From positions 1-24,636 of IMG/VR virus record IMGVR_UViG_3300024265_001327: a stretch of 24,636 bases of DNA; one strand, 5' to 3'. Shown in pieces: positions 226-12,578 of this stretch. The DNA is from a virus. Position 1 is the first letter of the stretch; every line of letters starts with the position of its first letter. The notes beneath the pieces are model-generated. The model did no database searches, had not been told where the DNA came from, and was given only the letters and a program-made list of their open reading frames with translations. A program made the position numbers and the translations under genes.

Positions 226-527
226 TTTTCCTCCAAGTCAGTTATTAAACATAACTTGATGAAACTATTTAATAACGTTCTATATAGATTAAGTTGGTTC
301 TGCATTATCCAAGTCTCTACATTATCCAAATGCGGCGCATCAACGTCAATAGGCATGAACCAATCATTCTTAGAAAGTTTGTCGATAGCATCCTCTCCGC
401 CGTGCTCCACCTCTAACATAATAGCCTTGAAGACTCTAGCAATATTACTAGCCCTCTCCCTAGGAATGCTATCTCTCAATTCTTCTATGTATTTATCTAA
501 TAATGGCAACTCTATATCTTTACTCAC
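222..527 (-). CDS. Hypothetical phage protein, 101 aa
   Basis: An open frame extends to 560, but the likely start is the GTG at 527 (MSKDIELPLL). That GTG overlaps the TGA of the preceding membrane-protein gene (GTGA), which is the junction style used throughout this operon. The product is soluble, rich in charged helices and ends DLEEK. No recognisable catalytic motif or metal site is visible. It lies between two membrane microproteins in the leftmost operon. Function unknown. Confidence 0.7.
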   Translation of the reverse strand: MSKDIELPLLDKYIEELRDSIPRERASNIARVFKAIMLEVEHGGEDAIDKLSKNDWFMPIDVDAPHLDNVETWIMQNQLNLYRTLLNSFIKLCLITDLEEK

Positions 528-685
528 GGTTGTAACCACCAAGCAAAGAACATCACACATAGAATACCTACACCCAAGATAGCAAAGGCTAATCCCATCA
601 AAACAATAGCAACGTTCTCAGGCAACCAAATTCCCCAAGCCAATCCGAGGATTAAGACTAGTAAACTGTATCCAATTATTAACAT
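524..685 (-). CDS. 53-aa two-helix membrane protein
   Basis: The frame (starts MLIIGYSLLVLILGL, ends FFAWWLQP) encodes two hydrophobic segments, about residues 2-20 and 25-48, separated by a short PEN turn: a helical-hairpin membrane microprotein. No good ribosome binding site lies directly before its ATG. Instead an AGGAGG site upstream serves a 9-codon mini-ORF that ends just past this ATG, suggesting start by re-initiation. Its TGA overlaps the GTG of the next gene. Function unknown. Confidence 0.65.
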   Translation of the reverse strand: MLIIGYSLLVLILGLAWGIWLPENVAIVLMGLAFAILGVGILCVMFFAWWLQP

Positions 686-708
686 TTTAAATCAAAGACA
701 CTTAGCAT
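679..708 (-). CDS. 9-residue leader mini-ORF
   Basis: ATG at 708 preceded by AGGAGGAAAAAGTC, the best Shine-Dalgarno in the neighbourhood. It reads MLSVFDLKC and stops at TAA 679-681, overlapping the ATG (685) of the 53-aa membrane protein in another frame. The arrangement looks like a translational-coupling leader rather than a functional peptide. It could also simply be a misplaced ribosome binding site, so confidence is limited. Confidence 0.35.
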   Translation of the reverse strand: MLSVFDLKC

Positions 709-735
709 GACTTTTTCCTCCTATGCTTAGTGATA

Positions 736-996
736 TTAACTATTTTCCATCCACAACACAAGGCCGGTAACTATAGTGACAAATCCCACTAATCCAAACT
801 TTGCTGCCGTTGATGTATCTGACAGTAATAGCGTAACTAAAAGACAGATTGCTCCAAGGATAGCTATCAATATAGAAACGCCAATAATGGTGTCTCGATC
901 ATCATTAAATAGAAATTTCCACATACTCTTGTTTCCCTTCTTTCTCTGTTCTATGGAGTCAAAGTACTCCTTTGGTTCTTCATCTAATTGATGCAT
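736..996 (-). CDS. 86-aa two-pass membrane protein
   Basis: The chosen ATG at 996 (MHQLDEEPKEYF) has GGAAAGG nine bases upstream; an earlier in-frame GTG at 1014 lacks a good site. The first 35 or so residues are charged and probably cytoplasmic. Two hydrophobic stretches follow, starting IIGVSILIAI and FGLVGFVTIV, with a short TAAK-containing loop and only a few residues after the second. The start lies inside the end of the upstream zinc-site membrane gene (17-base overlap). No family recognised. Confidence 0.7.
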   Translation of the reverse strand: MHQLDEEPKEYFDSIEQRKKGNKSMWKFLFNDDRDTIIGVSILIAILGAICLLVTLLLSDTSTAAKFGLVGFVTIVTGLVLWMENS

Positions 997-1171
997 CGTC
1001 CAATACCTTTCCACACTTTATGCAGAACTCTCCCCTGTTGTCTGACAAGGTTTCTGTCACTTCGTGCGTACACGGGTGTCCAGTGTGCGGTTTACTCATT
1101 TGTCTTTCCACGCCCGACACTACCACTACGACAAGTATTATCAGTAGTAAAGCAACTATTATCGTTATCAT
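980..1171 (-). CDS. 63-aa membrane-anchored small Cys/His protein
   Basis: The ATG at 1171 has an AAGGAGGA site close upstream. Residues 2-20 form a strongly hydrophobic anchor (MITIIVALLLIILVVVVV). The remainder is polar and contains an HPCTHE segment and a CIKCGK pair, suggesting a small zinc-binding fold held at the membrane. It overlaps the gene after it. Function unknown; the combination of one helix and a zinc-ribbon-like tail is seen in small phage proteins, but I cannot name a family. Confidence 0.7.
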   Translation of the reverse strand: MITIIVALLLIILVVVVVSGVERQMSKPHTGHPCTHEVTETLSDNRGEFCIKCGKVLDDASIR

Positions 1172-1174
1172 TAT

Positions 1175-1369
1175 TTAGTCCTCCTTCTCTTCTAAAACTT
1201 CTAATGTCAATTTAACCTTAACTCGCTTAAACTTCCTACTCATACCTGGATAACTTCCTGGGTCTTTGCCCCACATAGTGAATACCATAAATCTATCTCT
1301 TACTACACCAAAATATTTAATGTCTTTTGGAGTAATCCATCCCTCTGCACTCTTCTTTATATTTTCCAT
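1175..1369 (-). CDS. Hypothetical small basic protein, 64 aa
   Basis: Begins MENIKKSAEGWITPKD, with a start 13 bases inside the end of the upstream gene. It is rich in Lys/Arg through the middle (SRKFKRVKVKLTL) and ends acidic (EEKED). No membrane segment or Cys cluster. Its last codons also contain the ribosome binding site of the following gene. Unrecognised; a small beta-rich or nucleic-acid-binding fold is possible from the alternating basic/hydrophobic stretch, but that is a guess. Confidence 0.65.
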   Translation of the reverse strand: MENIKKSAEGWITPKDIKYFGVVRDRFMVFTMWGKDPGSYPGMSRKFKRVKVKLTLEVLEEKED

Positions 1370-1773
1370 TGTATTCTAAGTTCCTTTAAAAAGTCTTTCC
1401 ACTCTGGCACACGAGCACTACTGTTCAAAGCCCCGCACTTCTCCATAGCCCACTCATAGTATGTTTCATGTGGGTTTTTAGATGGCCCAAGTGTCCAATT
1501 AAGATGTTCATATGCTAAATTACTAGGTGCATCAGATGAATTTTCACCATACAAATCTTCACATATATCTGCGAGCATGGCACTAGTTATCATAGCTCTT
1601 GTCATATTGTGCTTATTTTTTTCTTCTAGTCTACGGCAAGTCTCTTCAAACCTTCGCTCCATAGCCAGCTTAAATCTATTGCGTATTAATTTCGCGTATA
1701 ACTCTTGATCTCCTGCTGCGAATTTTATTGCATGCCCCATCATGTCTTCAAATACATGTTCTGGTGTTTCCAT
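1357..1773 (-). CDS. Hypothetical helical phage protein, 138 aa
   Basis: The ATG at 1773 is preceded by TTAGGAGGGTATA, a strong site. The product is almost entirely helical, with an N-terminal segment rich in acidic and basic residues (RRFEETCRRLEEK) and a C-terminal part rich in aromatic residues (HLNWTLG, YYEWAMEK). No catalytic motif is seen. It shares TAATG with the preceding gene and overlaps the following one. Function unknown. Confidence 0.7.
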   Translation of the reverse strand: METPEHVFEDMMGHAIKFAAGDQELYAKLIRNRFKLAMERRFEETCRRLEEKNKHNMTRAMITSAMLADICEDLYGENSSDAPSNLAYEHLNWTLGPSKNPHETYYEWAMEKCGALNSSARVPEWKDFLKELRIQWKI

Positions 1774-1964
1774 TATACCCTCCTAAAAATTTTTAAAACT
1801 CTGGGTACGTGGTGCTCCCAGGCGTTACGTACTCCGTCTATGCCACCAGAAGGCTCTACACCATACTCACAACCTTCGAATCTTTGGCGCAAAGTAAGTT
1901 GATCACGAAATTCTTCGTACATCATTTCCACAAACTCTTCTTTAGACTTTAGACCAGCACGCAT
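1773..1964 (-). CDS. Hypothetical protein, 63 aa
   Basis: Starts MRAGLKSKEEFVEMMYEEF after a GAGGAAAA ribosome binding site and ends KIFRRV. Charged amphipathic helices with no Cys cluster or membrane segment. Its stop overlaps the ATG of the 138-aa gene (TAATG), so the two are probably made together. Function unknown. Confidence 0.65.
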   Translation of the reverse strand: MRAGLKSKEEFVEMMYEEFRDQLTLRQRFEGCEYGVEPSGGIDGVRNAWEHHVPRVLKIFRRV

Positions 1965-1970
1965 TTTTCC

Positions 1971-2120
1971 TCATTTCTTGTAATTCTTATCTGCTGTAGC
2001 TAACAGAACAAATATTGCCGCTAGTGCTAAGATTGTCCATATAATGTGTGTAACATTTGTGACAAAAATAAACACTATCAGTACTGTTAAGAAAGGATGA
2101 TCTAAACACCACTGTTTCAT
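1971..2120 (-). CDS. 49-aa two-helix membrane protein
   Basis: The frame begins MKQWCLDHPFLTVLIVFIF and ends DKNYKK. Two hydrophobic segments (about residues 10-22 and 26-42) with a short TNVTH turn predict a helical hairpin with a basic cytoplasmic tail. An AGGTGA site stands six bases before the ATG, just after the stop of the upstream membrane gene. Its stop lies immediately before the ribosome binding site of the next gene. Function unknown. Confidence 0.65.
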   Translation of the reverse strand: MKQWCLDHPFLTVLIVFIFVTNVTHIIWTILALAAIFVLLATADKNYKK

Positions 2121-2130
2121 GTGCTATCAC

Positions 2131-2304
2131 CTACCAATCTATTTCTTCCCAATACACTATTACCGCTAAAACTGCACCGAACATCAGCACAACTATACTA
2201 CAAAGAAATACTTTTACTGCGATGGTACTCAATGATAATAAAATTGATAATACCAACAATAGACCAGCTAAACCTGTAATACATCCTGCAACTCGCTTAA
2301 TCAT
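2131..2304 (-). CDS. 57-aa two-helix membrane protein
   Basis: The ATG at 2304 (MIKRVAGCITGLAG) has GGAGGG eight bases upstream and overlaps the previous stop as ATGA; an in-frame TTG at 2319 is less likely. Two long hydrophobic helices occupy nearly the whole chain, ending in an acidic WEEIDW tail. Size and shape match its neighbours, but the sequences are not obviously related. Function unknown. Confidence 0.7.
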   Translation of the reverse strand: MIKRVAGCITGLAGLLLVLSILLSLSTIAVKVFLCSIVVLMFGAVLAVIVYWEEIDW

Positions 2305-2564
2305 TTGTAAACCCTCCAAGGTTCTTCTCTACCATGCCATACATTTGCCATACATGCCGCTACCCACACGATGAACACAACTGCTGTTGCCGCTGCACCT
2401 AGTACTGATACAAGAAAGATTCCGAACGCAAACAATTGGAACCACGTAAACACTGAGTCAAGTAGACTGAGTGGAGCTGACAATATTCCCCACGCGATTA
2501 TACCAATGATAACTGTTAAAACTTTAGTTTGAAAAAATTCAAACAATCTACGATTAATTCTCAT
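2301..2564 (-). CDS. 87-aa membrane protein
   Basis: Begins MRINRRLFEFFQTKV, a basic N-terminus that should stay in the cytoplasm. Hydrophobic segments follow at about residues 15-36 and 42-72, the second long enough to cross the membrane once or twice. The tail HGREEPWRVYK is polar. It is coupled to both neighbours by ATGA overlaps, within a block of three consecutive membrane genes. Function unknown. Confidence 0.7.
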   Translation of the reverse strand: MRINRRLFEFFQTKVLTVIIGIIAWGILSAPLSLLDSVFTWFQLFAFGIFLVSVLGAAATAVVFIVWVAACMANVWHGREEPWRVYK

Positions 2565-2986
2565 GACTTACCTTTCTTCAGTGCTATCCATAGTCTTGCT
2601 ACTGCTTGTTCGGGCGTGTCACCTTCACCATAAACGTCATGTTCACTAGTGTCCCACCAAACCCCATGTGCATACCAGCGAGCGATGCAGCCATTTCCAT
2701 GCTCATTTGGTTCTGCTTGCTGATGGATAGTAGTAATTCTTCTTTCGAATGGAACATCACAAGCTCTTATAAGTTCTGAGAGTGTTGGGAGATAAGCACT
2801 GTCTTGAAGCCGTTTCCCTAGCTCATAGAAATTTAGATGGGTATCTTCATTTACTTCTTTCCACTCAGTTTCATGGTTTTCAAGAACCCACCAATTTTTT
2901 CCGTATTGTGAATACCCAGCTTCTTTCAGCTCTTTTGCCAATTCAAAGTCTAATGGCAAGAAACTAGAATTTTTACTTCCCATCAT
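2561..2986 (-). CDS. Phage hypothetical protein, 141 aa
   Basis: A soluble protein with the order LAKELKEAGYSQ, then YLPTLSELIRACDVPF, then an aromatic middle (ARWYAHGVWW), and a C-terminal GDTPEQAVARLWIAL helix. The SELI-AC and TPEQAVARLW signatures resemble a small family of uncharacterised phage proteins that I recognise by pattern but cannot name. Two adjacent ATG codons (2986 and 2983) follow a GAGAGGAAA site; either could be used. The start overlaps the upstream gene by 14 bases. Function unknown. Confidence 0.75.
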   Translation of the reverse strand: MMGSKNSSFLPLDFELAKELKEAGYSQYGKNWWVLENHETEWKEVNEDTHLNFYELGKRLQDSAYLPTLSELIRACDVPFERRITTIHQQAEPNEHGNGCIARWYAHGVWWDTSEHDVYGEGDTPEQAVARLWIALKKGKS

Positions 2987-3161
2987 TTTCCTCTCTTTTT
3001 ACTGTGTACCCACAATAAACACAGACCATATCGCCTTTTTTGAAGACACCTTTATCTCTTTTAACTGTTACGTAATCATGGTGTCCATCTTTGTCACAGA
3101 TAGTTTGTTCTTTCTTCCATGACCCTTTTGGCGGTCTCTCTTTTTTCTTTTTATTCGCCAT
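2973..3161 (-). CDS. Small basic zinc-ribbon-like protein, 62 aa
   Basis: The N-terminus is very basic (MANKKKKERPPKGSWKK). A possible zinc site is formed by a Cys and His in TICDKDGHHD and by a CVYCG pair near residue 47. This looks like a mini zinc ribbon with a nucleic-acid-binding tail, though that is inference. It starts 11 bases inside the end of the upstream Cys-rich gene, so the two are likely co-translated. Confidence 0.7.
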   Translation of the reverse strand: MANKKKKERPPKGSWKKEQTICDKDGHHDYVTVKRDKGVFKKGDMVCVYCGYTVKREENDGK

Positions 3162-3525
3162 TGTCTTTTAAATTCCACCTTTTACATTTTTCTTGTGCGA
3201 GTTTTCTTGTTGGTAATAAACGTCTTTCATCTACTATTTCGTAGTGCCGAGTACACATGCTTGTGTGATATTGAATGGAAGTGTGTTTAGGGCATATAAT
3301 AATTTCAATCTTATCTACAGTTCTTTCTACTCCTTCAACTATCCATTGTGGTTGCGCTTCAATAACTTTGCTGCCGAGACACTTAGGACATTTGTATAGT
3401 TGTCCATCCAGAAGCACAACTTCTCCAACGCCTTCACAGGAAGGGCATTTTATCTCCATACCTCTACGGATAATTCTACAAACTTTATTACCTATAAAGT
3501 ATTTATGTTCTACTGTGCAACTCAT
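3151..3525 (-). CDS. Zinc-binding phage protein with DnaJ-like CxxCxGxG repeats
   Basis: Two Cys pairs about 20 residues apart, KCPSCEGVGE and KCPKCLGSKV, match the alternating CxxCxGxG pattern of DnaJ-type zinc fingers. Further Cys/His residues (CPKH, CTRHYE) follow and the C-terminus is basic. The protein has no J domain, so it is not a chaperone of the DnaJ type; phages often carry such stand-alone fingers. Its ATG overlaps the stop of the upstream membrane protein. Role unknown. Confidence 0.75.
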   Translation of the reverse strand: MSCTVEHKYFIGNKVCRIIRRGMEIKCPSCEGVGEVVLLDGQLYKCPKCLGSKVIEAQPQWIVEGVERTVDKIEIIICPKHTSIQYHTSMCTRHYEIVDERRLLPTRKLAQEKCKRWNLKDNGE

Positions 3526-3695
3526 TTTGTAATAGCTCTACCCACTCTCTCAAAATTCATACCCGCAAGGAAAATTATAGTGATGCCTATTGGCAAAAAC
3601 AATGGAAAATCTTTCTGTGTAGATATAAACCATGCCACAAAGATTAACCTCACTACTCCCGTGAGTAATTCTATTTTCATTCGCTTTCTTGTCAT
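3522..3695 (-). CDS. 57-aa two-helix membrane protein
   Basis: A frame too short for common cut-offs: begins MTRKRMKIELL, ends RVGRAITK, with hydrophobic helices at about residues 10-25 and 31-46. The basic N- and C-termini predict both ends in the cytoplasm. The TGA stop overlaps the ATG of the zinc-finger gene (ATGA), supporting reality. No good Shine-Dalgarno precedes the ATG; instead a strong hairpin covers it (3695-3730), so translation may be controlled by RNA folding. An ATG six codons in is an alternative start. Confidence 0.65.
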   Translation of the reverse strand: MTRKRMKIELLTGVVRLIFVAWFISTQKDFPLFLPIGITIIFLAGMNFERVGRAITK

Positions 3696-3730
3696 AGCAC
3701 CCCAGGAGCCGATGAAGGCTCAAGGGGCTA
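3695..3730 (-). promoter_or_regulatory. RNA hairpin over the start of the 57-aa membrane gene
   Basis: On the minus-strand RNA, GAGCC and GGCTC pair around a 6-base loop, extended by CCC/GGG and by TAGC/GCTA arms with small internal mismatches. The outer 3' arm reaches the A of the start codon at 3695 and includes the only G-rich candidate ribosome binding site. Seen directly as base pairing; a translation-control role is inference. Confidence 0.5.
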
Positions 3731-3747
3731 TCGTACAAAGGTGGTTC

Positions 3748-3761
3748 AGGTTGGCAAACCT
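3748..3761 (-). other. Short hairpin just after the SPFH gene stop
   Basis: AGGTT and AACCT pair perfectly around a 4-base loop, 3 bases beyond the stop codon of the SPFH gene. No T-run follows on the minus strand, so it is not a classical terminator; it may protect or delimit a processed 3' end. Confidence 0.35.
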
Positions 3762-3764
3762 AAA

Positions 3765-4715
3765 CTATTTAGGAATGTTGAACAGCAACGGTGCGCCCGC
3801 TCCGCCACTGTAGTACGTGGGGAACTTACCATCCCAGACATCAATGGCTCGTTGTTGTAAGACTCCGGGAGTTAAGCTGCGCTCCAGTAGTTCGTTGGCT
3901 TTAGCAGTACCTTCAGCTTTGAGAATACGAGACTCTAAGCTGAAGGTTGCCTCTGCAATGAGCTGTTCGGCTTCAGCCTCTTTTGTCACGACTATGAGCT
4001 TTGCCTGCTTCGCCAATTGTTTCTGCTTCACTTTGTTCTCGATGGCGGCGGTAAAGTCCTTCTTGAAACTGATATTCTGCACCGAAATATCATCGACGAT
4101 CAAGTATGAAGATGCGAGACGGTCGGATAGAGTTGTTTTGATCAACTCGGCCAGTTTCCCTCGGTTAGCAATCATATCCTCGGCTTCGAATGTTGCGGTG
4201 GCTCTTTTGATTGCGTCCTGAGTTTTCGGCACAAGGATGGTTTTCGCAACTGTATCTGCGTCTCCAATATCCCTGTAGATTCTATGGACATTTTTAGCAT
4301 CGTAGTGGTAATTGACTGTGACGACCGCTCCAACATCTTGTGTGTCCTTGGAGGCCGCCGAATTCTTTTCGACATCTAATACGACCGTGTGCTCTCTCAC
4401 TCGAACCGAAACCTCGTGAACTGTCTCCACCGCTGGGGTTACAACGTTGAACCCCTCTTGCAAAATGCGGCTTTTTACACCAGATTTTTGTGAGTAAATA
4501 ACACCTCTGTGACCTGCGGGCATGATCTGAATGGCAGAAAAGAATACTAATATTCCCACCAATACAACCAGCCCTGTTACTGTACGAGAGACTGGAAAAC
4601 TCGCAATCCCTCTGATATCACCGTAATCAGTTCTGTCGAAAGATATGCCCTTCCATATCCATCCAATCAAACCAATTAGAGTGACCATAAACAATAGAAA
4701 CTTTAAAAACTCCAT
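3765..4715 (-). CDS. SPFH/prohibitin (HflC-like) membrane protein
   Basis: A 316-aa protein with two N-terminal hydrophobic segments (about residues 3-22 and 47-66), then an SPFH/Band 7 domain. The domain shows MPAGHRGVIYSQ, GFNVVTPAVETVHEVSVRV and a VTVNYHYDAKNVHRIYRDIG strand region, followed by an Ala/Lys/Glu-rich coiled coil (about 215-275) typical of prohibitins. Family members assemble into large ring-like cages on membranes and modulate proteases such as FtsH. In a phage this could remodel the host membrane, stabilise lysis timing or exclude other phages; none of these is shown by the sequence. The start has AAGGAGTAACAAGC upstream. Base composition is visibly richer in G+C than most of the window, suggesting separate acquisition. 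Confidence 0.9.
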   Translation of the reverse strand: MEFLKFLLFMVTLIGLIGWIWKGISFDRTDYGDIRGIASFPVSRTVTGLVVLVGILVFFSAIQIMPAGHRGVIYSQKSGVKSRILQEGFNVVTPAVETVHEVSVRVREHTVVLDVEKNSAASKDTQDVGAVVTVNYHYDAKNVHRIYRDIGDADTVAKTILVPKTQDAIKRATATFEAEDMIANRGKLAELIKTTLSDRLASSYLIVDDISVQNISFKKDFTAAIENKVKQKQLAKQAKLIVVTKEAEAEQLIAEATFSLESRILKAEGTAKANELLERSLTPGVLQQRAIDVWDGKFPTYYSGGAGAPLLFNIPK

Positions 4716-4757
4716 GCTTGTTACTCCTTTTACCTGTTTACCTTACTATCAAAGTCA

Positions 4758-4773
4758 ATACTCTATAGAGTAT
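4758..4773. promoter_or_regulatory. Perfect 16-bp palindrome upstream of the SPFH gene
   Basis: ATACTCTATAGAGTAT is a perfect inverted repeat with no spacer, in the 70-base gap between the acidic tail-anchored gene and the SPFH gene. A TATACT hexamer partly inside it could act as a minus-strand -10, though the -35 match (TTGGGC at 17 bases) is poor. Candidate operator or promoter; function unproven. Confidence 0.4.
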
Positions 4774-4785
4774 ATTGAGTGTGGG

Positions 4786-5055
4786 CTAGTAGCCCAATGA
4801 AACTAGTATGCTGCCAATGAGGAAACCAAGAGCCAATCCGCCGACGATACAGCCTATGACCGTCCAGACTCCAATTCCTGACTTTTCTTCTACCACCAAT
4901 TCCTCTTCTTCTTGCTTGTCGTCTTCAACAAGCTCCAGTTTAGGCACATCAACGTTGTCAGTTTCCCCTTGTACGACTTCCTCTGCTCCAGCGCCTGCTG
5001 GTTCAACCTTTTCTCCATTGTTCTCGTTCTGTTGTTCGTTCTTATCTTTGCTCAT
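4786..5055 (-). CDS. Acidic tail-anchored membrane protein, 89 aa
   Basis: The start at 5055 (MSKDKNEQQNENNGEK) is favoured because GGAAGGAG precedes it; an in-frame ATG at 5076 has no such site. The first 60 residues are polar and very acidic (KQEEEELVVEEK), probably disordered. Residues about 65-89 form one hydrophobic helix with a glycine-zipper pattern (VGGLALGFLIGS), ending at the C-terminus. This predicts a tail anchor with the acidic part in the cytoplasm. It sits next to the SPFH gene, so the two may act together at the membrane (inference). Confidence 0.75.
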   Translation of the reverse strand: MSKDKNEQQNENNGEKVEPAGAGAEEVVQGETDNVDVPKLELVEDDKQEEEELVVEEKSGIGVWTVIGCIVGGLALGFLIGSILVSLGY

Positions 5056-5077
5056 GCTTTTTTCTCTCCTTCCCATC

Positions 5078-6484
5078 TTAAAGTTCCGCTCTCTTTCTTA
5101 CGTCGGTAAAATTTTCATCACGTATCAATTGACCATCAACGAATACGGTTTCTAATAGGTCTTCGCCTTCCTCTGAGATTAGGACTGTTTTGAACTCTTC
5201 TCCAACCTTGATTAATTTAAGTCTTCCTGCTTTGGACGCTTTGTACACATCTCTTGGTTGTTTACGAATATCATGCCAAGTACCATCTCTGAGTTGTGAA
5301 GAACACTTGAAAGCAAACCGCTGTACGTCTCGATTTACGTCTTGAAGTAAGCCACCACCCATCCCAAATGTAGCTATGTTATCAGTGCTGAACTTGTTTA
5401 GTTCCACAAAAGCTAATGTCTCACTGATTGAATCTATACTTAGTCCGTCTCCCCAAAGAACTCTTACTTTCGGGTTAAGAACTTTGTATCCTTTGCTGTT
5501 TATTTCGCCTCCAAAATTATGGTAAAGCGATTGTAATATCCAAAGTACCTGCTCACCAGGGGTTCTATGCTCTGGAGATATACTGTCTGGTCTAACGACG
5601 AATACTCCATCACGTTTTAGTATCTGTTCTTTGTAGATTTTGCCCATGTACTCGTCTACGAATCTGTAAATGTCGTAAGAATCTCCCACGACGCTCAAGA
5701 TTCCAGCAGGGTATTTGGCTAATATTTCGCCCAACAACCTTATTTCTCCTTCTCTGCCGTAACTAGTCATGATACTATGCTCCGTTGCTGGTACAGAGAA
5801 AGCAATATCGCTGAAGTCACGCGGGGCATTGTAATAGTCTCTAGCGCACACAATCGCGGCCAGGGTGTCAGTACCCATAAAGTTCACTAGATGGGCAAGA
5901 CCACCTATCTCAGCGCCACTCATAGTACTTACGCCCCTTGCTCCAAAGTCATGCAACTTAAAGAGTAGACTACTTACATCGTCTGAAGTCATTCCCAAAT
6001 AAGCTTTGAGAATTCTTTTGACTTCACGACTGAGAGTAGCCACTGTGCTTGGATACCAAACTTGGCTCAAAAGTGTTTCCAAGTATGATGTTAGCCACTC
6101 ACACTCTTTGTCAGTGTTTAGTATGGTGAGCATCACATTATCTTTCGGAACTACCATGCCCTCCGGCACTGCCTTTATCATTACTGGCAATCTTCCGTCG
6201 TGTTTATTGAGTATGTGCTCCCACCCAGCTTTGTTAAAGGCTCCTGGGCCTAGATGCGCCAAGCACAATGTTTCTGCTTCATCTATTTTTTCTTGGGTCA
6301 CAACTCGGCCTAAGAACATGTTCTTGAGTATGTATTGTAACCCAAAGAAAACAGTCTCATCCCACCTTGCCGTATTTCTCGCCTCCAGGTAGGAGTATAT
6401 TCCTCGTGTGCCTGGTGGATACATATTGTGGTGAGCACCAATTTTGTAACTGTCTGTGCTTAAAATAATGTTCTTTTTGCTCAT
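5078..6484 (-). CDS. nadV: Nicotinamide phosphoribosyltransferase (NAMPT)
   Basis: A 468-aa enzyme that joins nicotinamide and PRPP to make NMN, the first step of nicotinamide salvage. It has full family length and the known motifs: LHDFGARGVS (R183, matching human R196), GTDTLAA (D205), catalytic His in FSVPATEHS (H236, matching human H247), VVRPDS (R298, D300), and the GMGGG phosphate loop (374-378). The ATG at 6484 has AAAGG nearby; an upstream TTG is possible. It lies 24 bases after a gene for the next pathway step, so the phage encodes a complete route from nicotinamide to NAD. Known phage versions are called NadV or NatV-linked. Confidence 0.96.
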   Translation of the reverse strand: MSKKNIILSTDSYKIGAHHNMYPPGTRGIYSYLEARNTARWDETVFFGLQYILKNMFLGRVVTQEKIDEAETLCLAHLGPGAFNKAGWEHILNKHDGRLPVMIKAVPEGMVVPKDNVMLTILNTDKECEWLTSYLETLLSQVWYPSTVATLSREVKRILKAYLGMTSDDVSSLLFKLHDFGARGVSTMSGAEIGGLAHLVNFMGTDTLAAIVCARDYYNAPRDFSDIAFSVPATEHSIMTSYGREGEIRLLGEILAKYPAGILSVVGDSYDIYRFVDEYMGKIYKEQILKRDGVFVVRPDSISPEHRTPGEQVLWILQSLYHNFGGEINSKGYKVLNPKVRVLWGDGLSIDSISETLAFVELNKFSTDNIATFGMGGGLLQDVNRDVQRFAFKCSSQLRDGTWHDIRKQPRDVYKASKAGRLKLIKVGEEFKTVLISEEGEDLLETVFVDGQLIRDENFTDVRKRAEL

Positions 6485-6508
6485 CAACTCTACCTTTCTC
6501 CCTTATTA

Positions 6509-7462
6509 TTAAACAGTGAATTCTTCTTTACTTATTCCTTTTTCTCTACAATGGTGTATTAACTCCCTTAATAAGTCTTCATGGCTGGGAATTAAATCAC
6601 CAGGCAGGATGTCTGTGTTTCCACTTGGTAAAAATCTTACCCACTTCAGTTCATCTAAGTCGTCTCTTGGTTGTATATCACCAAAGATATATTTGGCTGT
6701 GTAAAATGCGGTCATTATTTTATCTTCTTCTCTACTATAACGACCATCATTAATTCTAAGACTACAAACGTATCTTAAATCATCTATTTCTGCACATGTC
6801 TCTTCATTGACTTCTCGTTTGCAAGCTGCTTCCAATGAATCATCTTTCTGCGGGTCAACAAACCCTCCAGGAAATCTCCATTTTATTTCGTTCTCTTTTC
6901 TACCAATTAGCAGTTCTTCATCTTTTAAAACTGCAATATCCACGGTTTGATAAGAGGTTGCAAATCTATTTTGAGCTGCCCACGTAACACCTGCTCTGAA
7001 ATGAGCAGTTGGTAGTTCACGCAGACCAGTTTCTTTTCTCAACTGTGTCGCAGATTGACATGGCTTCTCTAAGAATTTGCGTGTATTAAACCCACCATGA
7101 TAACGGCCAATGAAACTGTCTCTACCACCATACAACATAACACTGTGATTTGGGCCTCTGAAATCATTAATTATAGAGTCTAGATTTCTTGACCACAATT
7201 CATCGTTGTCTGGTACATCTTTAATATAGGCTATTGTCGTGGTTGGGAACTCATTAAATATCATTTGCCTCCGCGATTCGTAACTGAGAGGATTATTCAT
7301 GGTCACTCTAGTATGAGCTACCCCCACTATTATGAGCAATCTGCCAGTTTTTCCTAGCACAGTGTGCATCATGTCTCTGTGTGCATCAGTTAAATAAGGG
7401 GTTTGGAATCTACCCACAATCACACCTATGTCACTGAGTTCCTCTTCTGGTTCCATGTTCAT
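6509..7462 (-). CDS. Bifunctional NMN adenylyltransferase / Nudix hydrolase
   Basis: The N-terminal half (about 10-175) is an NMN adenylyltransferase. It shows GRFQTPYLTDAH, a variant of GRFxPxHxGH in which T..H replaces H..H, and the C-terminal SATQLR motif that binds ATP phosphates. The C-terminal half (about 180-310) is a Nudix domain, GGFVDP...REVNEET, with an Asp and a two-residue insertion where the first box Glu is usual. The first domain makes NAD from NMN and ATP; the second probably hydrolyses ADP-ribose-like compounds. Same architecture as KVP40 NatV and cyanobacterial NadM-Nudix. The start overlaps the previous stop (ATGA) and has GGAGGT eight bases upstream. Confidence 0.94.
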   Translation of the reverse strand: MNMEPEEELSDIGVIVGRFQTPYLTDAHRDMMHTVLGKTGRLLIIVGVAHTRVTMNNPLSYESRRQMIFNEFPTTTIAYIKDVPDNDELWSRNLDSIINDFRGPNHSVMLYGGRDSFIGRYHGGFNTRKFLEKPCQSATQLRKETGLRELPTAHFRAGVTWAAQNRFATSYQTVDIAVLKDEELLIGRKENEIKWRFPGGFVDPQKDDSLEAACKREVNEETCAEIDDLRYVCSLRINDGRYSREEDKIMTAFYTAKYIFGDIQPRDDLDELKWVRFLPSGNTDILPGDLIPSHEDLLRELIHHCREKGISKEEFTV

Positions 7463-7767
7463 AGCTCAGTACCTCCATACTTATCTATAATTACCCAATC
7501 TTCTTTTAAATATTGTCTTACTAAATCTTCAAGGTGCTTATCATCTTTAGCCCACAATGTAGCGTATTCATGAGCTTCCATAACGTGAGTAATTACTTCG
7601 TAATGCAAAGAAGCGATTACAAAATTAGGTATGCCTGCATGATTAGATACTTTTAAATCTAAATGTTTTGTAGGCTCAAAATGTATTGAAATATTTCTTA
7701 ATAATTTTACACCTTTGCCTGTATCTTCGGTTCTAATGCGTCTTTCAAGTCTTAATTTATTTTGCAT
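7459..7767 (-). CDS. Hypothetical protein in the NAD cassette, 102 aa
   Basis: The ATG at 7767 (MQNKLRLERRIRTED) follows GAGGTTGTTG; an in-frame GTG at 7779 is less likely. A basic N-terminus leads to a beta-rich middle (KLLRNISIHFEPT, NFVIASLHYEVITHV) and a helix-rich end (HLEDLVRQYLKEDW). No catalytic motif is visible. It is translationally coupled to the NMNAT-Nudix gene by ATGA, so a role linked to it is possible but not shown. Confidence 0.7.
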   Translation of the reverse strand: MQNKLRLERRIRTEDTGKGVKLLRNISIHFEPTKHLDLKVSNHAGIPNFVIASLHYEVITHVMEAHEYATLWAKDDKHLEDLVRQYLKEDWVIIDKYGGTEL

Positions 7768-7927
7768 CAACAACCTCACTCTTGTTTACTTCTTTGCACT
7801 TGTGTTTTGTTCTTCCCACCACAGTAAGGATACAATCGCTTCCCCAAAAGGTTTCACAATGAGTCTGCCCACAAAAAGGAAGCATATCACATATATAAAC
7901 TTTTTCAATTTTTTCTCCAGGTTCCAC
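7757..7927 (-). CDS. 56-aa Cys/His-rich protein with GTG start
   Basis: A short frame starting with GTG at 7927, seven bases after AGAAGGA. It has six Cys and two His: YICDML, PFCGQTHCETF, SDCIL and KHKC, spaced as in small zinc- or disulfide-stabilised proteins. It overlaps the gene before by 23 bases and the gene after by 11, matching the packing of this operon. It has no N-terminal anchor. Function unknown; probably a metal-binding microprotein. Confidence 0.6.
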   Translation of the reverse strand: MEPGEKIEKVYICDMLPFCGQTHCETFWGSDCILTVVGRTKHKCKEVNKSEVVDAK

Positions 7928-8414
7928 TTTCTATCCTTCTAGCTCCGTGTTCTTCCATATTGTCTTTGTTGTTCATGTGATACGCCCAGACAGGAAAAAT
8001 ACTACCATTAGATTCTGTCAAAACTAATGCTCTTTCGTACAAACAATTTTTTACGCCTGGTCTAAATCCTTCCAATCTATCTAAATCATTAAAACTAGAT
8101 GACGGATTTCTGAATGTAATTACTTCTCCAAAAACTCTACCCCATTCATCACCATAGTCATTAAATGTATTAAACTCCGGGTCAGTCAATGTTTCTTGGA
8201 GTTCAACATCAAATTCATGGTCTTTCGTCCCATGCGCTATGATGGAACGGTGTGGAATCTGGATGCCAGGAAATGCACCGTGTACTAAATCATAAATTCT
8301 CCCGATAATACTTCCTTCTTCCACATGTGTAACATCTTTGCAATAAAAATAGTGGTTGCCATGACCTCTTTTTAGAGTACCATAAACAAACACTTTGTAT
8401 AGTTTTTCCATCAT
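7905..8414 (-). CDS. Gamma-glutamylcyclotransferase-like (GGCT/AIG2) protein
   Basis: A 169-aa protein with the family's glycine-rich N-terminal signature VFVYGTLKRGHGNH (8-21) and an acidic catalytic-type residue in LDRLEGF (E115). Members cleave gamma-glutamyl-amino acids or gamma-glutamylamine crosslinks to give 5-oxoproline. In phages the substrate is unknown. It is somewhat longer than the minimal fold, with an insertion around residues 60-90. Coupled to the isochorismatase-like gene by ATGA. Family assignment is solid; specificity is not. Confidence 0.85.
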   Translation of the reverse strand: MMEKLYKVFVYGTLKRGHGNHYFYCKDVTHVEEGSIIGRIYDLVHGAFPGIQIPHRSIIAHGTKDHEFDVELQETLTDPEFNTFNDYGDEWGRVFGEVITFRNPSSSFNDLDRLEGFRPGVKNCLYERALVLTESNGSIFPVWAYHMNNKDNMEEHGARRIESGTWRKN

Positions 8415-8968
8415 TTATTAACTTCCATTCTCAACACTTCATCAGTAAAAGCAAATAAAGTACCGTACATGACTCTCATTTCATTTACAATATCAAGTGA
8501 ACCATCGACTTCTTCATCTGACGCATGTAGCATAACAGCGTCGAAGGGTACTACTGTATCGTACCCACGATAAAAAGCATCAATCACACTGTGCCGTATA
8601 CTAATGTCTAAAAATGCTCCTGTAAAAATTAATGTGTCTACGGCGTATTCAGTTAGAATATAATCCAAACCTGTGTTATTAAAAGCAGAAAAAGAATTCT
8701 TGTGTAGAACTTCATCTCTTTCATAATCAACTGCTATCTCTGGTACAAGACTTGCAGCAGGAGAACCTTTCATAGCATGGTTATCCCACACCTTAAATTC
8801 AACATCTTCTGGAGAATGACTATCTATTACATGAACTGCTCTATTATAACCACTACTCCACTGTAGCAAATCATTGATGTTAACTACACAACCAGGGAAA
8901 CGAGGTGAAGCGTACCTTCCCCTGACACATTCCTCTGTAGTATCTATATTTATAACCATTGGATTCAA
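8411..8968 (-). CDS. Isochorismatase/nicotinamidase-fold protein lacking the catalytic Cys
   Basis: A 185-aa protein aligning by pattern with cysteine hydrolases such as nicotinamidase PncA: Asp in NIDTTEEC (D9), metal-site-like D49-x-H51 and H64 followed by MKGSPAASLVPEI, Lys in HKNSFSAF (K90), and the TGAFLDISIRHSVIDAF stretch. The nucleophile position, normally Cys in TDxCV, is Ser (S123). It may therefore be a binder or altered enzyme rather than a nicotinamidase. The TTG start at 8968 has AGGAGA six bases upstream and overlaps the previous TGA as TTGA; an ATG three codons in is an alternative. It shares the leftward block with NAMPT and NMNAT. Confidence 0.85.
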   Translation of the reverse strand: MNPMVINIDTTEECVRGRYASPRFPGCVVNINDLLQWSSGYNRAVHVIDSHSPEDVEFKVWDNHAMKGSPAASLVPEIAVDYERDEVLHKNSFSAFNNTGLDYILTEYAVDTLIFTGAFLDISIRHSVIDAFYRGYDTVVPFDAVMLHASDEEVDGSLDIVNEMRVMYGTLFAFTDEVLRMEVNK

Positions 8969-9279
8969 TTTGGGTCTCCTGAGGGCATTGGATTCACACT
9001 TGGTATACCAAACTCTTTAGTCACTGTTTTGGACTCTTTTCTTCCCAAAGCATCCTCCCCACCAAATTTTTCATCTATGACTACTTCTCTAATTAAAGTT
9101 ATAGTGCTTTCGTTCGCAATTATTTTTGGAGTAGACTTTGAAGTAACACTCTTTTTTAAAGCGACAACAGTATTTCCAAGTGTATGTATTTTCCAGATAG
9201 AAAAGAATAATAAAACAATTATTCCAACCATAAACACTCGTAAGTACACATTCTCATTAATTTTTACTTTTTCGCTCAT
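8965..9279 (-). CDS. 104-aa single-pass membrane protein
   Basis: The start at 9279 (MSEKVKINENVYLRVF) has AAGGAG just upstream; an open frame continues to 9381 through a structured non-coding region and should not be included. One transmembrane helix lies at about residues 13-32 (VFMVGIIVLLFFSIW). The following 70 residues are polar, ending in a Pro-rich tail (SVNPMPSGDPN), and are probably outside the cytoplasm. A spanin-like or membrane-accessory role is conceivable, but no motif supports it. Confidence 0.7.
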   Translation of the reverse strand: MSEKVKINENVYLRVFMVGIIVLLFFSIWKIHTLGNTVVALKKSVTSKSTPKIIANESTITLIREVVIDEKFGGEDALGRKESKTVTKEFGIPSVNPMPSGDPN

Positions 9280-9476
9280 AACACTCCTTTTCATTTGCTT
9301 TTCAAGTGCTTTCCGATAGCTCCCGGTCGGGGAGCCACCAGGAAGCATTTGACAGGCTTCTAGGTAACAATGGAGCAACATCCTTGATTGTTGTCGCGCT
9401 AAGGCTGAATTCGTGATGGTACATCATCTTGTTTCGGGAGTTGCTGTCCGTGCAATGCGCTCCAGTGTATTTTATT
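9280..9476 (-). ncRNA. Candidate structured RNA with five hairpins
   Basis: This 197-base gene-free stretch is richer in G+C than its surroundings. It contains successive inverted repeats: 9319-9335 (GCTCCC/GGGAGC), 9342-9360 (GAAGC/GCTTC), 9366-9392 (AACAAT/ATTGTT), 9414-9426 (TGATG/CATCA), and 9437-9463 (GGAG and TTGC paired with GCAA and CTCC around a bulge). No convincing open frame with a ribosome binding site is present. It could be a leader of the membrane gene at 8965-9279 or a stand-alone RNA. Strand is inferred from its neighbours. No known RNA family recognised. Confidence 0.45.
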
Positions 9477-9713
9477 TTAGGTTACATTTTCAAATGTTAT
9501 TCTATATCTTTCCTTATCTCCCACATCTTCTATAGACATTATTACTCTTTTTTCTACGTCAGTTACAAAATGTTCATAAAACTTATTAAACGTCAATCCA
9601 GATTTAGCAAATTCTCTTATATACCTACGGCTTATTAATTCATATAAATCTATAGGTATTGTAAATATATACAAAACTTCGTATATATTCTCTCTTACCA
9701 CAGCGTTTGCCAT
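9477..9713 (-). CDS. Hypothetical protein, 78 aa
   Basis: Begins MANAVVRENIYEVLYIF; its ATG shares a base with the stop of the preceding gene (TAATG). Soluble, with hydrophobic/aromatic helices (LYELISRRYIREFA) and a C-terminal beta-like segment (RYRITFENVT). No motif recognised. It is the last gene before the structured non-coding stretch. Confidence 0.65.
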   Translation of the reverse strand: MANAVVRENIYEVLYIFTIPIDLYELISRRYIREFAKSGLTFNKFYEHFVTDVEKRVIMSIEDVGDKERYRITFENVT

Positions 9714-10177
9714 TATGTTGTGTTCTCTTCGACTGTCTCTTTCTTTTTTTCCGTTGTTTTGTTTTCTAACCTGGCAGCAACTCTAGCAGCTTTGCTCTCA
9801 TCTCTGCGCCTTTCATACGCTTCAATTTTGCCAGCTTTGTTGTCTTTTTGTTCTTTCCTCTGGCTTTGTATATCGTCTTGGTGTTTTATAAGACCGTTTA
9901 TTGATTCAGCATATCTTCTTGAGACATTATGCAAGGCTCTTGCTAAAGCAATTTGCTCGCCAAGTTCAGCGTTCGGTGTGTCTCCTTTAGCACGAACAGC
10001 TCTACCAGTTGATGATATTCCATATAAGCTTTTTGCATCACCAACAAAACCTTGTTTATTTGGAATAGTACTGATTATTGACATTTCAACGTTAGCCACA
10101 GAAACGTCTCCATCAGAACAAGTTTTGGTTATTATTGTTACTGAATGTTCTCTTTCTTTATTTACTTTTTTGCTCAT
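9713..10177 (-). CDS. Phage protein resembling DUF1876-like proteins, with charged tail
   Basis: A 154-aa protein with CTAGGAGGAC upstream of its ATG. The first 100 residues alternate strands and a helix, ending in GDTPNAELGEQIALARAL. That resembles small dsRBD-like proteins of the DUF1876 type, in which a variable strand region precedes an ELG..LALARAL helix. The C-terminal 45 residues are a highly charged Lys/Glu/Arg helix and probable coiled coil. Family match is by pattern only; function unknown. Confidence 0.7.
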   Translation of the reverse strand: MSKKVNKEREHSVTIITKTCSDGDVSVANVEMSIISTIPNKQGFVGDAKSLYGISSTGRAVRAKGDTPNAELGEQIALARALHNVSRRYAESINGLIKHQDDIQSQRKEQKDNKAGKIEAYERRRDESKAARVAARLENKTTEKKKETVEENTT

Positions 10178-10190
10178 GGCGATAGTCCTC

Positions 10191-10508
10191 CTAGTTTATT
10201 TTTGATTGTTCTTTTGAAAACATTATATACGTTGATATAAGTGAAAATCCTTCTGCCATTATATCTGTGTATTTGTTTTCCCCTACTACTTCAGATGGAA
10301 TTAAGAACACCCCTTGCCCTAATAAGTCTTCTCTGTTGCCATCATCTTCATCCAAGAACCGTAGTTTTAGGTTTCCTTCACTCGGTAATCTTTCCACCTG
10401 CCCTATATATTCACTAGATTCTGTGAAAGCTAAATAGTGATTTTTATTAATTGATTTTGAGCTGTTCTCCAAACTCACTGCTTTCTTTGGTTCCATTCGC
10501 TGTTTCAT
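10191..10508 (-). CDS. Hypothetical protein, about 105 aa, start uncertain
   Basis: The longest frame starts at 10508 (MKQRMEPKKAVSLEN), but this overlaps the end of the RNA-ligase-like gene by 62 bases, unusual for this operon. A start further in, at the GTG in the AVSLEN stretch, would shorten the overlap; no candidate has a strong Shine-Dalgarno. The body is acidic and beta-rich (NLKLRFLDEDDGNRED, GVFLIPSEVV). It ends shortly before the ribosome binding site of the next gene. Function unknown. Confidence 0.6.
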   Translation of the reverse strand: MKQRMEPKKAVSLENSSKSINKNHYLAFTESSEYIGQVERLPSEGNLKLRFLDEDDGNREDLLGQGVFLIPSEVVGENKYTDIMAEGFSLISTYIMFSKEQSKIN

Positions 10509-11757
10509 CTATTTCCATTCCTCTTGCTGGTTGAATTTCTAGAAGATTTGCTTTCAGCACTTTCCAAATTGGTAACATTTTGTCAGCTTTCCATTTGTCT
10601 CTAGCTTCGGCCATCATTTTGGGACGTTCTCTGGGGTCATCGAAATTAATTCCTGACTCTAAAGCCCATTCTAATACTTCTGCTGCAAAATCCCTTTCGT
10701 CTTGATAACCTTTAATAGTCCAATTAATTAATGTTTCAGCTCTATAAATTTTTCCTGGGTTAAAGTCTTCTCCTAAAACCTTCATAATGTATTTTGTATC
10801 CACAACAAAACCATTAGCCAATTGTTTAGTTAGAGTTCTTGAAATCATAAATTTGTTTATATAATTTTCTGCTGTTGCTCTTAATTGTCTACTCAAGAAA
10901 CTGTAAACATATAGTTGTCCTTTGTCTCCATAAGCATAGCAGCAATATCCAGCAGTACTTATTTGCATAGTCTCTTTAACTGTATTTTTATTTAGTTCAT
11001 CCATAAATTTTTCCATAGAAGCTATTGCTCTAGGGAATGTTTTCATGTCCGTACTATCAAATTCATTTATTGCGATGGGTGGTAAGTGTCCTTTTGCGTC
11101 ACCTAATTCAAACATTTGACCATCTGTTTGTCGCACTGCAAACAAGGTAGAAGCAGCTAAATCAAAGTTATACTTTATACAACCATATACCTGATACCCA
11201 AACACTTCAAAAACCATGTTCATGTTATCCATTATTGCATCAGGTATGTGTGGGTACATTTTTAATATTTTCTTCCACAAAGATGCTGCTGGGAAACCTA
11301 TAGTGTCTCGAAGAATTTCAGTTATTCTTGGTTTGAATGTTACAAACTCTTTTTCACCATCAGTATACTTATAACCTAATACACTGAACCCTTCAAATTT
11401 CTCTCTCACAACTATGTATTTGAAAGTTGGCACAGTCTCACTATCTAAATTGCCCAAGCTAGGGTAACTAAATACTTTTTGAGGCACAAATTTCTTGTTG
11501 ACTGAAGCTATGTATAAAGAGCCATACATAAGTCCCGGTTCGTCACAAAAAGCCCCAGTAATAGTATTACCGGGGTTAAAAGTATCCTCTTCTTCAAAAA
11601 AAGATACATGTTGCTTTTGAACCTTTAATGCTTCGGAAGCCTCACTTAAAACTGTTTTTCTTTCTTTAGCAATAGAGCCAGGTTGTTTTTTTCGTTTAAT
11701 CTTATTTGTTAAAGTGTGTATAGAATTGGTATTGGTGCGGTGAGGGATATTAGACAT
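10447..11757 (-). CDS. Putative RNA ligase-like nucleotidyltransferase
   Basis: A 436-aa protein with features of the covalent nucleotidyltransferase superfamily. VVREKFEGFSVLGYKY holds a KxxG motif I candidate (K120). VFEVFGYQVYG (182-192) matches motif III. A following FDLAASTLFAVRQTDGQ stretch fits the IIIa strand region, and ANGFVV near residue 318 may be motif IV. These are in the order expected of phage RNA ligases, which seal RNA nicks through an enzyme-AMP intermediate. The N-terminal 60 residues are basic and may be flexible. Motif V is not clear, so activity is uncertain. Coupled by an 8-base overlap to the gene before it. Confidence 0.6.
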   Translation of the reverse strand: MSNIPHRTNTNSIHTLTNKIKRKKQPGSIAKERKTVLSEASEALKVQKQHVSFFEEEDTFNPGNTITGAFCDEPGLMYGSLYIASVNKKFVPQKVFSYPSLGNLDSETVPTFKYIVVREKFEGFSVLGYKYTDGEKEFVTFKPRITEILRDTIGFPAASLWKKILKMYPHIPDAIMDNMNMVFEVFGYQVYGCIKYNFDLAASTLFAVRQTDGQMFELGDAKGHLPPIAINEFDSTDMKTFPRAIASMEKFMDELNKNTVKETMQISTAGYCCYAYGDKGQLYVYSFLSRQLRATAENYINKFMISRTLTKQLANGFVVDTKYIMKVLGEDFNPGKIYRAETLINWTIKGYQDERDFAAEVLEWALESGINFDDPRERPKMMAEARDKWKADKMLPIWKVLKANLLEIQPARGMEIDETANGTKESSEFGEQLKIN

Positions 11758-12118
11758 TATTGAAACTCTCTAACGTTCTTATGTTCACATGGTCTAGCAC
11801 TGGTTTCATTGTTTCTAATCCGCCAAACATCGTATGTGGATTGTCATAATCAATTGTTGTAATCTTCCCAGCTGTCAATGGTATTTCTTGAAATTCAAAT
11901 AGTACACGCCGAATCATATCCATTACACCGTTTTCTGCCCAACCATTAGCTTCTGCTTCTATGCTCAAGGCTTCTTCTAGGGAAGTCGCTATTATTACAG
12001 AACAAAGAGTTCCTTGGTGGTCGAGCAGATACAGATTAAGTTTTTTATTTTTAATAGTTTTTTTCACTGGTGTCCTTGATTTTCTTAATCTATCTCTTGG
12101 TTCTTTTCCCGTTCCCAT
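11750..12118 (-). CDS. Hypothetical protein, about 122 aa
   Basis: Two starts are possible: ATG at 12142 (MAILFRSN) with a weak site, or ATG at 12118 (MGTGKEPRDRLRKS) with AGGAG four bases upstream, which I prefer. The N-terminus is strongly basic (KKTIKNKKLN); the rest forms an alpha/beta pattern (NLYLLDHQGTLCSVIIATS, LEEALSIEAEANGW). No known motif. A strong RNA hairpin lies in the leader at 12163-12204. It precedes and overlaps the RNA-ligase-like gene. Confidence 0.65.
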   Translation of the reverse strand: MGTGKEPRDRLRKSRTPVKKTIKNKKLNLYLLDHQGTLCSVIIATSLEEALSIEAEANGWAENGVMDMIRRVLFEFQEIPLTAGKITTIDYDNPHTMFGGLETMKPVLDHVNIRTLESFNNV

Positions 12119-12162
12119 GTTGCTCCTAAAAAGTATTGCCATTATTTCTGCCTGTTATATGT

Positions 12163-12204
12163 CCAGCAGTATGGGCCGGATGCCACAACGACCCACACTA
12201 CTGG
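12163..12204 (-). promoter_or_regulatory. 13-bp leader hairpin that pairs fully only on the minus-strand RNA
   Basis: Arms 12163-12175 and 12192-12204 enclose a 16-base loop. On the minus-strand transcript all 13 positions pair, two as G-U wobbles; on the plus strand those two would be A-C mismatches. This points to selection for structure in the leftward mRNA, upstream of the 122-aa gene. No T-run follows, so it is not a standard terminator. Candidate cis-regulatory or protein-binding RNA. Confidence 0.55.
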
Positions 12205-12226
12205 ATTGGAGGTGAAACCATCAAAC

Positions 12227-12430: not shown

Positions 12431-12457
12431 TCTTTCAAATAGTCTCCTTTCTCCCTG

Positions 12458-12491
12458 TGTGCAGTATATTAAGTACTCTGCACATTTTTTT
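12458..12491. other. Hairpin with T-run in a 5' leader
   Basis: TGTGCAG and CTGCACA form a perfect 7-bp stem, followed on the plus strand by seven T. Read leftward it is a leader hairpin just upstream of a Shine-Dalgarno. Read rightward it has the form of an intrinsic terminator, though no rightward gene ends here. It may stabilise the leftward mRNA or stop antisense transcription. Confidence 0.4.
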
Positions 12492-12558: not shown

Positions 12559-12578
12559 TAGTCCTGACCTGCGACTTT

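Follow-up and report, generated by a model that had tools for sequence, protein, structure and literature searches.

The question raised by this locus is whether a phage can rebuild nicotinamide adenine dinucleotide (NAD) with two enzymes of its own and, if so, whether the genes surrounding them belong to the same system. The window (the whole stretch of DNA that was analysed) is a 24,636-base virus record, IMGVR_UViG_3300024265_001327, whose minus strand carries, one directly after the other, a gene for a fusion of a nicotinamide mononucleotide (NMN) adenylyltransferase with a Nudix domain and a gene for a NadV-type nicotinamide phosphoribosyltransferase (NAMPT). We consider it very probable that these two genes constitute a phage NAD salvage pair. 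A second viral contig (L002, G001) of 113,027 bases is 99.92% identical to window positions 11-13476 and hence represents more of the same phage; it is referred to below as the sister contig.

The NAMPT gene and its adenylyltransferase-Nudix partner

The NAMPT gene (5078..6484, minus strand; 468 amino acids (aa)) starts with ATG, the start given by the program that listed open reading frames (ORFs) being instead a TTG at 6487. Its assignment is based on NCBIfam, Pfam and full-length alignment: the protein scored 534.7 bits against the NCBIfam model PRK09198 (cut-off 405), exceeded the cut-offs of both Pfam domains NAMPT_N and NAPRTase, and matched PHROG 448 ('nicotinamide phosphoribosyl transferase') with an E-value of 2.6e-146. 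The chains of 7yqo and 6tac, which we take to be Xanthomonas and human NAMPT, could be aligned with it from end to end (399 and 396 bits, respectively), and the TDSYK, GTDT, xEHS, DSYD, RPDS, GDG, and GGG stretches are kept in the alignment, presumably with catalytic roles such as that of the phospho-His and of the Asp for the amide. Family scores, alignment with these two chains and kept motifs bear out the full-length NAMPT with its active-site stretches that had been described in a sequence-only reading of this DNA.

The fusion gene (6509..7462, minus strand; 317 aa) ends 24 bases upstream of the NAMPT ATG, so that the short gap claimed in that reading, like the position and strand of both ORFs, proved accurate. 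It encodes a predicted nucleotidyltransferase domain (residues about 9-145) followed by a Nudix domain (168-310). The Nudix half was detected by Pfam NUDIX over its cut-off (E 3.1e-11) and has a REUXEE-type metal site (REVNEE, residues 216-221) in a Nudix box whose last Gly is replaced by Cys. The adenylyltransferase half gave weak matches from the single sequence; when a profile of 13 proteins of the same divergent ('compact') NadM branch was compared with the PDB, bacterial NadM proteins came first (2qjt, E 1.6e-26; 2qjo, E 7.7e-24). An AlphaFold model of the window fusion (predicted local distance difference test (pLDDT) 79, predicted template modelling score (pTM) 0.48) was also searched with Foldseek, and the best six chains were all NadM (E 4e-18 to 1e-14). 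Since the structural rows of VIA-align reached the Nudix half only, the adenylyltransferase fold rests on the NadM profile match and on Foldseek. Together with Pfam NUDIX, these two lines of evidence corroborate the earlier assignment of the gene as a fused NMN adenylyltransferase-Nudix enzyme.

Relatives of the fusion were taken from the best 80 of 265 viral loci with 6-kb flanks, using an alignment-based scan of the compact type, and those of NAMPT from the best 80 of 287 loci in IMG/VR with 8-kb flanks; both sets share contigs, and near-copies were retained. Alignment with relatives places a (H/T)xGH-type nucleotidyltransferase motif at fusion residues 25-28 (TDAH; 7379..7390, minus strand), in which Ala stands in place of the Gly. 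Thr is tolerated as the first residue in (H/T)xGH enzymes, and the H-or-T pattern is present in 71 of the 80 fusion relatives (62 with H and nine with T, the sister contig included). Five of the nine unmatched relatives were read, three of which have HxxH after an altered GRFQ, one has Ser first, and one has Gln for the last His. The compact type is characterized by GRFQxxxL(H/T)xxH, which is two residues longer than GRFQPxHxxH of classical NadM, and by a DDWRYR stretch in the Nudix half (INDGRY in the window fusion).

For phylogenetic analyses, loci with a best NMN adenylyltransferase score below 60 bits or a NAMPT score of 150 bits or less were dropped, L110 was excluded for lying on the same contig as L002, L003 (discussed below) was also excluded from the fusion tree, and thinning at 60% identity reduced the compact proteins from 86 to 51 and the classical ones from 56 to 11. 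In the fusion tree of 61 proteins (50 compact and 11 classical), one branch parts the two types with a Shimodaira-Hasegawa-like approximate likelihood ratio test value of 100; this tree and the NAMPT tree were both built with a quick method and contain some long terminal branches. Judged by predicted fold and by ancestry in this tree, the fusion is a NadM-Nudix protein, but it belongs to a divergent branch.

In the phage collection, relatives of the fusion were found in 6 of 50,697 records, in five of which the match covers 80% or more of the fusion, and the relative in Tunturi_5 is annotated as 'cytidyltransferase' (one record). A single-sequence scan of viral contigs with the fusion matched the sister contig alone. 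In cellular genomes, matches to the Nudix part were observed and the adenylyltransferase part was matched once, in one genome; this sample (4 genomes, then a set of 14 from a single phylum that shared one with the first) is too small for calling the compact branch phage-only. What appears to be new is the predicted phage NMN adenylyltransferase-Nudix branch itself, which lies beyond the reach of the NCBIfam models and is labelled cytidyltransferase where annotated. Such labels imply that counts of phage NAD rebuilding may be too low.

Linkage of the pair across viral contigs

A NAMPT gene was present within the flank of 74 of the 80 fusion relatives, on the same strand in 74/74, downstream of the fusion in 73 and upstream in one, and the two open frames are less than 150 bp apart in 45 of these 74 loci. 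An NMN adenylyltransferase-Nudix fusion was in turn detected within the flank of 69 of the 80 NAMPT loci, on the same strand in 69/69, upstream of NAMPT in 67 and downstream in two. This count, limited for each of the three queries to ORFs of at least 250 aa and to best scores of at least 60 bits, comprises 56 classical and 13 compact fusions (sister contig included). When fusion type was placed on the NAMPT tree, 2-3 changes were counted with the quick method, compared with a mean of 10-11 after shuffling, which suggests that the pair has mostly been inherited together, with few re-pairings.

One locus, L003, differs in the adenylyltransferase slot. Its NAMPT nests among the NAMPTs of compact fusions in the NAMPT tree (a set of 26 compact rows plus L003), and the region L003:5962-7963 contains, in this order, a 372-aa ORF that ends in a NadD-like domain, two Nudix-like ORFs, and NAMPT. 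The C-terminal part of the 372-aa ORF matched PRK07152 over residues 208-369 (E 1.7e-9, below the cut-off of that model), and the ORF also matched Pfam CTP_transf_like over its cut-off (E 2.8e-12); its N-terminal 200 residues had no Pfam match at E 0.01. The ORF after it encodes a compact-type Nudix protein that stands on its own and scored 78 bits against the window fusion; the second Nudix-like ORF follows. The simplest reading of this one case is that the adenylyltransferase half has been swapped for another and its function kept. The NadD-like replacement thus argues for adenylylation of NMN (or nicotinate mononucleotide) in that slot and hints at what the slot must do.

Predicted pathway and alternative readings

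From the families, kept motifs, predicted fold, tight linkage and natural replacement described above, we infer the following activities. NAMPT would convert nicotinamide and 5-phosphoribosyl 1-pyrophosphate (PRPP) into NMN, and the adenylyltransferase half of the fusion would convert NMN and ATP into NAD. For this predicted production of NAD from nicotinamide, PRPP and ATP, which had been proposed before, the protein families, the fold, the closeness of the two genes and their linkage across contigs give good support. ADP-ribose or NAD-like dinucleotides are the most likely substrates of the Nudix half, which would split them into AMP and a phosphoribosyl part, a step that would clear ADP-ribose and could feed PRPP via host enzymes. 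In the structural comparison of this domain that the sequence-only reading had suggested, an ADP-ribose pyrophosphatase was indeed matched, but it tied with diadenosine tetraphosphate (AP4A) hydrolase, NrtR, NudC, and MutT (Z 15.7-17.2). Because the domain ties with many Nudix enzymes, the idea that it also removes cyclic signal products found no support. The likely benefit of the pair would be that NAD is kept up when host NADase defences, or infection itself, deplete it, and its use against such defences is plausible.

NARP2 is reportedly a further name for salvage by NadV and NadM-Nudix. The phage route from nicotinamide and PRPP through NMN to NAD by these two proteins is described in the available portion of PMC9503650, which gives the share of phages with NadV as 22% for those of medium size and 33% for jumbo phages and states that NadV is present in every phage that has NadM. 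The window contains the same gene pair with the same predicted reactions, in agreement with the NARP2-type pathway to which it had been likened. NAD rebuilding as a response to NADase defence is argued in the same text and is supported for the related NARP1 route in the accessible part of PMC12774641, and a NARP2 protein has been reported in vibriophage particles (PMC12028318, excerpt). The pair itself is therefore of a published kind; the finding is sound, not new, and confirms the pathway without extending it.

Several observations weigh against this interpretation. The PRK09198 model matched by NAMPT bears the label nicotinate phosphoribosyltransferase. As a single sequence, the fusion is far below every PRK05379 cut-off in NCBIfam (best 62 versus 449 bits); for comparison, a classical phage fusion (L060) passes one PRK05379 model (357.8 bits, cut-off 354) and misses the rest (best 376.3 versus 397). 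The first residue of the fusion motif is Thr, and the compact LYGGRDSF stands where classical NadM has GHxKDxSSxYLxxFPQW; with the low PRK05379 score, these features mean that NMN as the substrate of the fusion is not proven. The Nudix box contains two extra residues in its first part. Six of the 80 fusion relatives have no NAMPT in the flank (two near contig ends, three with identical matches that are probably one virus, and L165 without explanation), and a whole fusion is missing from the flank of 11 of the 80 NAMPT loci, namely L003 with its split form and ten others, several of them on short contigs. The window holds nothing that shows a defence target. Finally, the PRPP synthetase domain (PF13793) was not found in the 113-kb sister contig and was detected in 2 of 50 NAMPT-locus records, so the host would have to supply PRPP if the rest of the genome encodes no synthetase.

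The sister contig also contains genes of possible relevance to ADP-ribose. ARAGORN predicted 26 transfer RNA (tRNA) genes across its six pieces, and its tRNA region encodes a borderline Macro-domain protein (23.7 bits, cut-off 22) and a weak gp30.3-like protein below the cut-off (L094:11011-11478, L094:14619-15119). A SLOG-family (YAcAr) protein is also present in the phage genome, and a TROVE/Ro60-type family match was observed in pieces L093-L094. The Macro domain and the SLOG protein fit a setting of ADP-ribose conflict and prove nothing.

Among the alternatives, the one that we take most seriously, though we do not favour it, is that the pair serves general metabolism, providing NAD for the synthesis carried out by a large phage, not undoing NADase defence. 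NAMPT relatives are widespread (1910 of the 50,697 phage records, across many hosts), and the family scan of the sister contig revealed an anaerobic ribonucleotide reductase, a DNA polymerase, a primase, and a helicase, all of which would be compatible with such a role. However, the Pfam families listed, incompletely, for 109 of the 134 sister-contig ORFs of at least 90 aa include no recognized NAD-consuming enzyme, the NAD-dependent epimerase found there only borrows NAD, and the borderline Macro domain and SLOG protein are company that the available portion of PMC9503650 links to ADP-ribose conflict.

Two further alternatives concern the enzymes themselves. The 'cytidyltransferase' annotation in Tunturi_5, a match to PHROG 395 cytidyltransferase (E 2.4e-8) and the rewritten motifs of the fusion could mean that its adenylyltransferase half acts on a substrate other than NMN and that the Nudix half alone touches NAD metabolism; this appears very unlikely, considering that NMN adenylyltransferases lead both the profile and the fold matches, that NAMPT is linked in 74/80 loci and that a NadD-like domain occupies the slot in L003. 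We regard it as extremely improbable that the protein called NAMPT here is the Namat of a NARP1-type pathway, which uses ADP-ribose pyrophosphate, even though Namat and Nampt have a common catalytic core according to the accessible part of PMC12774641. Its scores with 7yqo and 6tac are far above the 221-241 bits of the three chains that bear this name and score lowest ( whether Namat is among the chains was not checked), and its neighbour is a predicted NMN adenylyltransferase, which NARP1 does not need. As regards the NARP1 pair of Adps and a Namat specific for ADP-ribose pyrophosphate, no PRPP-synthetase-like domain was found in the scanned window genes or the sister contig, with no search aimed at Adps itself or at the selectivity clamp.

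Other genes of the row and comparison with known systems

The salvage pair lies within a row of minus-strand genes, from 9381 down to 3765, that overlap or sit close to each other. One of them (8411..8968; 185 aa from TTG) encodes an isochorismatase/nicotinamidase-fold protein (PF00857, E 2.2e-24), in which an AGT codon (8600..8602, minus strand) places Ser123 at the position of the catalytic Cys. Asp9, Lys90, DSH (49-51), and His64 are present, so the Asp-Lys-Cys triad of nicotinamidases lacks its Cys, with Ser123 in both the window and the sister contig. When compared with the nicotinamidase fingerprint of a DxH...PxH metal site plus CV (PMC3581539, available text), the protein has DSH, but DNH for PxH and SI for CV, and it is below all NCBIfam cut-offs. 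Its predicted fold (pLDDT 75.5, pTM 0.78; four-sequence alignment) resembles that of cysteine amidohydrolases, nicotinamidases, and isochorismatases from end to end (Z 20-23), and the closest solved structure is labelled as an N-carbamoylsarcosine amidase relative.

All four cellular relatives that were found have Cys at the aligned place, and the nearest of them (Omnitrophota, L099) lies directly against, or overlaps, a gene for nicotinate phosphoribosyltransferase (PRK08662, 483 bits, cut-off 243). A single-sequence scan of viral contigs matched the sister contig alone; an alignment-based scan added two viral relatives, which have Cys and whose loci contain no NAMPT or fusion match. The viral relative L200 (IMGVR_UViG_3300032053_000101) adjoins a nicotinate phosphoribosyltransferase-like gene (PRK07188, E 1.7e-39, below the cut-off). 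These neighbours of the relatives point to a nicotinamidase origin of the Ser-containing protein, although the closest solved structure bears a different label and the family acts on many substrates. In L200:4860-6822, the Cys nicotinamidase-like gene is followed by the phosphoribosyltransferase-like gene and an RNA ligase, a gene set that is possibly a phage route through nicotinic acid; scans of viral contigs with each of the nicotinamidase-like and phosphoribosyltransferase-like genes returned L200 alone.

An engineered C136S nicotinamidase of Streptococcus pneumoniae (3O94) was crystallised with bound nicotinamide (PMC6271260, available text), and, according to structure titles, C-to-S forms of biuret and triuret hydrolases also contain bound substrate. 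As such crystal forms hold their substrate, the Ser form could bind without turnover. The phage protein is probably disabled as a hydrolase; alternatively, Ser123 may be a slow nucleophile or may serve a substrate of another kind. A more speculative scenario, which we put forward as a long shot, is that it is a phage-evolved non-hydrolysing nicotinamidase that would bind nicotinamide without destroying it and keep it for NAMPT, or join and block host PncA complexes, diverting nicotinamide from deamidation into the two-step phage route as a third, guarding component. In the literature collection that was searched, nothing relevant turned up on a nicotinamidase or isochorismatase that serves phages in this way, and neither word occurs in the available portion of PMC9503650. 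The presence of this Ser-for-Cys relative in the row lets one ask whether phages stop the host from wasting nicotinamide.

Adjacent to it is a gene (7905..8414, minus strand; 169 aa) for a gamma-glutamylamine cyclotransferase (GGACT, AIG2-like) protein, with PF06094 at E 6.3e-17 (62.7 bits, cut-off 22.8) and the YGTL and LDxxEG motifs, the Glu of which has a role in this family. The sequence-only reading had counted three further uncharacterised genes in the cassette, two of which therefore have families (isochorismatase fold and GGACT). The remaining ORF, of 101-106 aa (7459..7779, minus strand; ATG 7764 or GTG 7779; from the ORF list), overlaps the fusion start by 4 bases; it could not be placed convincingly in a family, and the loci searched contain no relative of it beyond this phage. 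The gap between it and GGACT is bridged by a possible 40-codon ORF from TTG (7786..7908, minus strand, by eye). A 138-aa ORF (8965..9381, minus strand) with one likely membrane helix (by eye) overlaps the isochorismatase-fold gene by 4 bases and has no convincing family in Pfam or PHROG. Directly after NAMPT lies a gene for a 96-aa acidic protein (4786..5076, minus strand) with a C-terminal membrane helix (by eye) and no informative family in Pfam or PHROG, and the next gene downstream encodes an SPFH/Band 7 protein (3765..4715, minus strand; PF01145, E 3.2e-24). Eight of the 11 differences between the window and the sister contig sit in 10 bases of the SPFH gene (3937-3946), perhaps as an effect of assembly or local rearrangement.

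It is unlikely that the whole row from 9381 to 3765, including the Ser-containing isochorismatase and GGACT, is a single NAD system. Its genes overlap or are close on one strand, and Cys relatives of the isochorismatase adjoin nicotinate phosphoribosyltransferase genes in a bacterium (L099) and a virus (L200). However, in the two sets of 80 loci (NAMPT and fusion), only the sister contig matched the isochorismatase and the 101-aa ORF, and for GGACT there is one weak match beyond it (E 6e-4, L055). Pfam detected isochorismatase in 2 of 100 records (50 NAMPT loci and 50 fusion loci, each drawn from its set of 80), namely the sister contig and L085 (in G003), whose protein is likewise without Cys and not near its NAMPT, and GGACT in 4 of 50 (the same NAMPT loci, sister contig included; PRPP synthetase was counted on another 50). 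On these counts, the three extra genes were rejected as conserved parts of the system. A COOH-NH2 ligase and a glutamine amidotransferase are the more usual setting for a gamma-glutamyl cyclotransferase, and GGACT may belong instead with those of this phage. In the sister contig, glutamine amidotransferase, COOH-NH2 ligase, and Ku genes are close together (L096:9479-12803). Elsewhere in the window, positions 14776-20701 contain glycosyltransferase-like genes (14776-15537 and 19442-20701; PHROGs) with a radical-SAM gene between them, and a promoter scan gave 18 matches, about as many as shuffled sequence leads one to expect (17.2).

With respect to known systems, the locus resembles phage NadV plus NadM-Nudix of the Vibrio phage KVP40 type, as far as these are described in the available literature, in that NAMPT adjoins an NMN adenylyltransferase-Nudix fusion with the same predicted reactions; the window fusion differs from the KVP40-type pair in its separate branch with a longer GRFQ motif, LYGGRDSF, and a DDWRYR-type stretch. 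It shares domain order and fold with bacterial NadM-Nudix proteins (2qjo, 2qjt/2r5w), but is 17-19% identical to them in structural alignment. The 8411-8968 gene product is similar to PncA/isochorismatase-like cysteine hydrolases in fold, Asp9, Lys90, DxH, and His64, and unlike them in having Ser at the nucleophile position and DNH for PxH. It shares with 3O94 (43 bits in sequence comparison) the replacement of Cys by Ser at the aligned position, a change that is engineered in 3O94 and natural in the phage.

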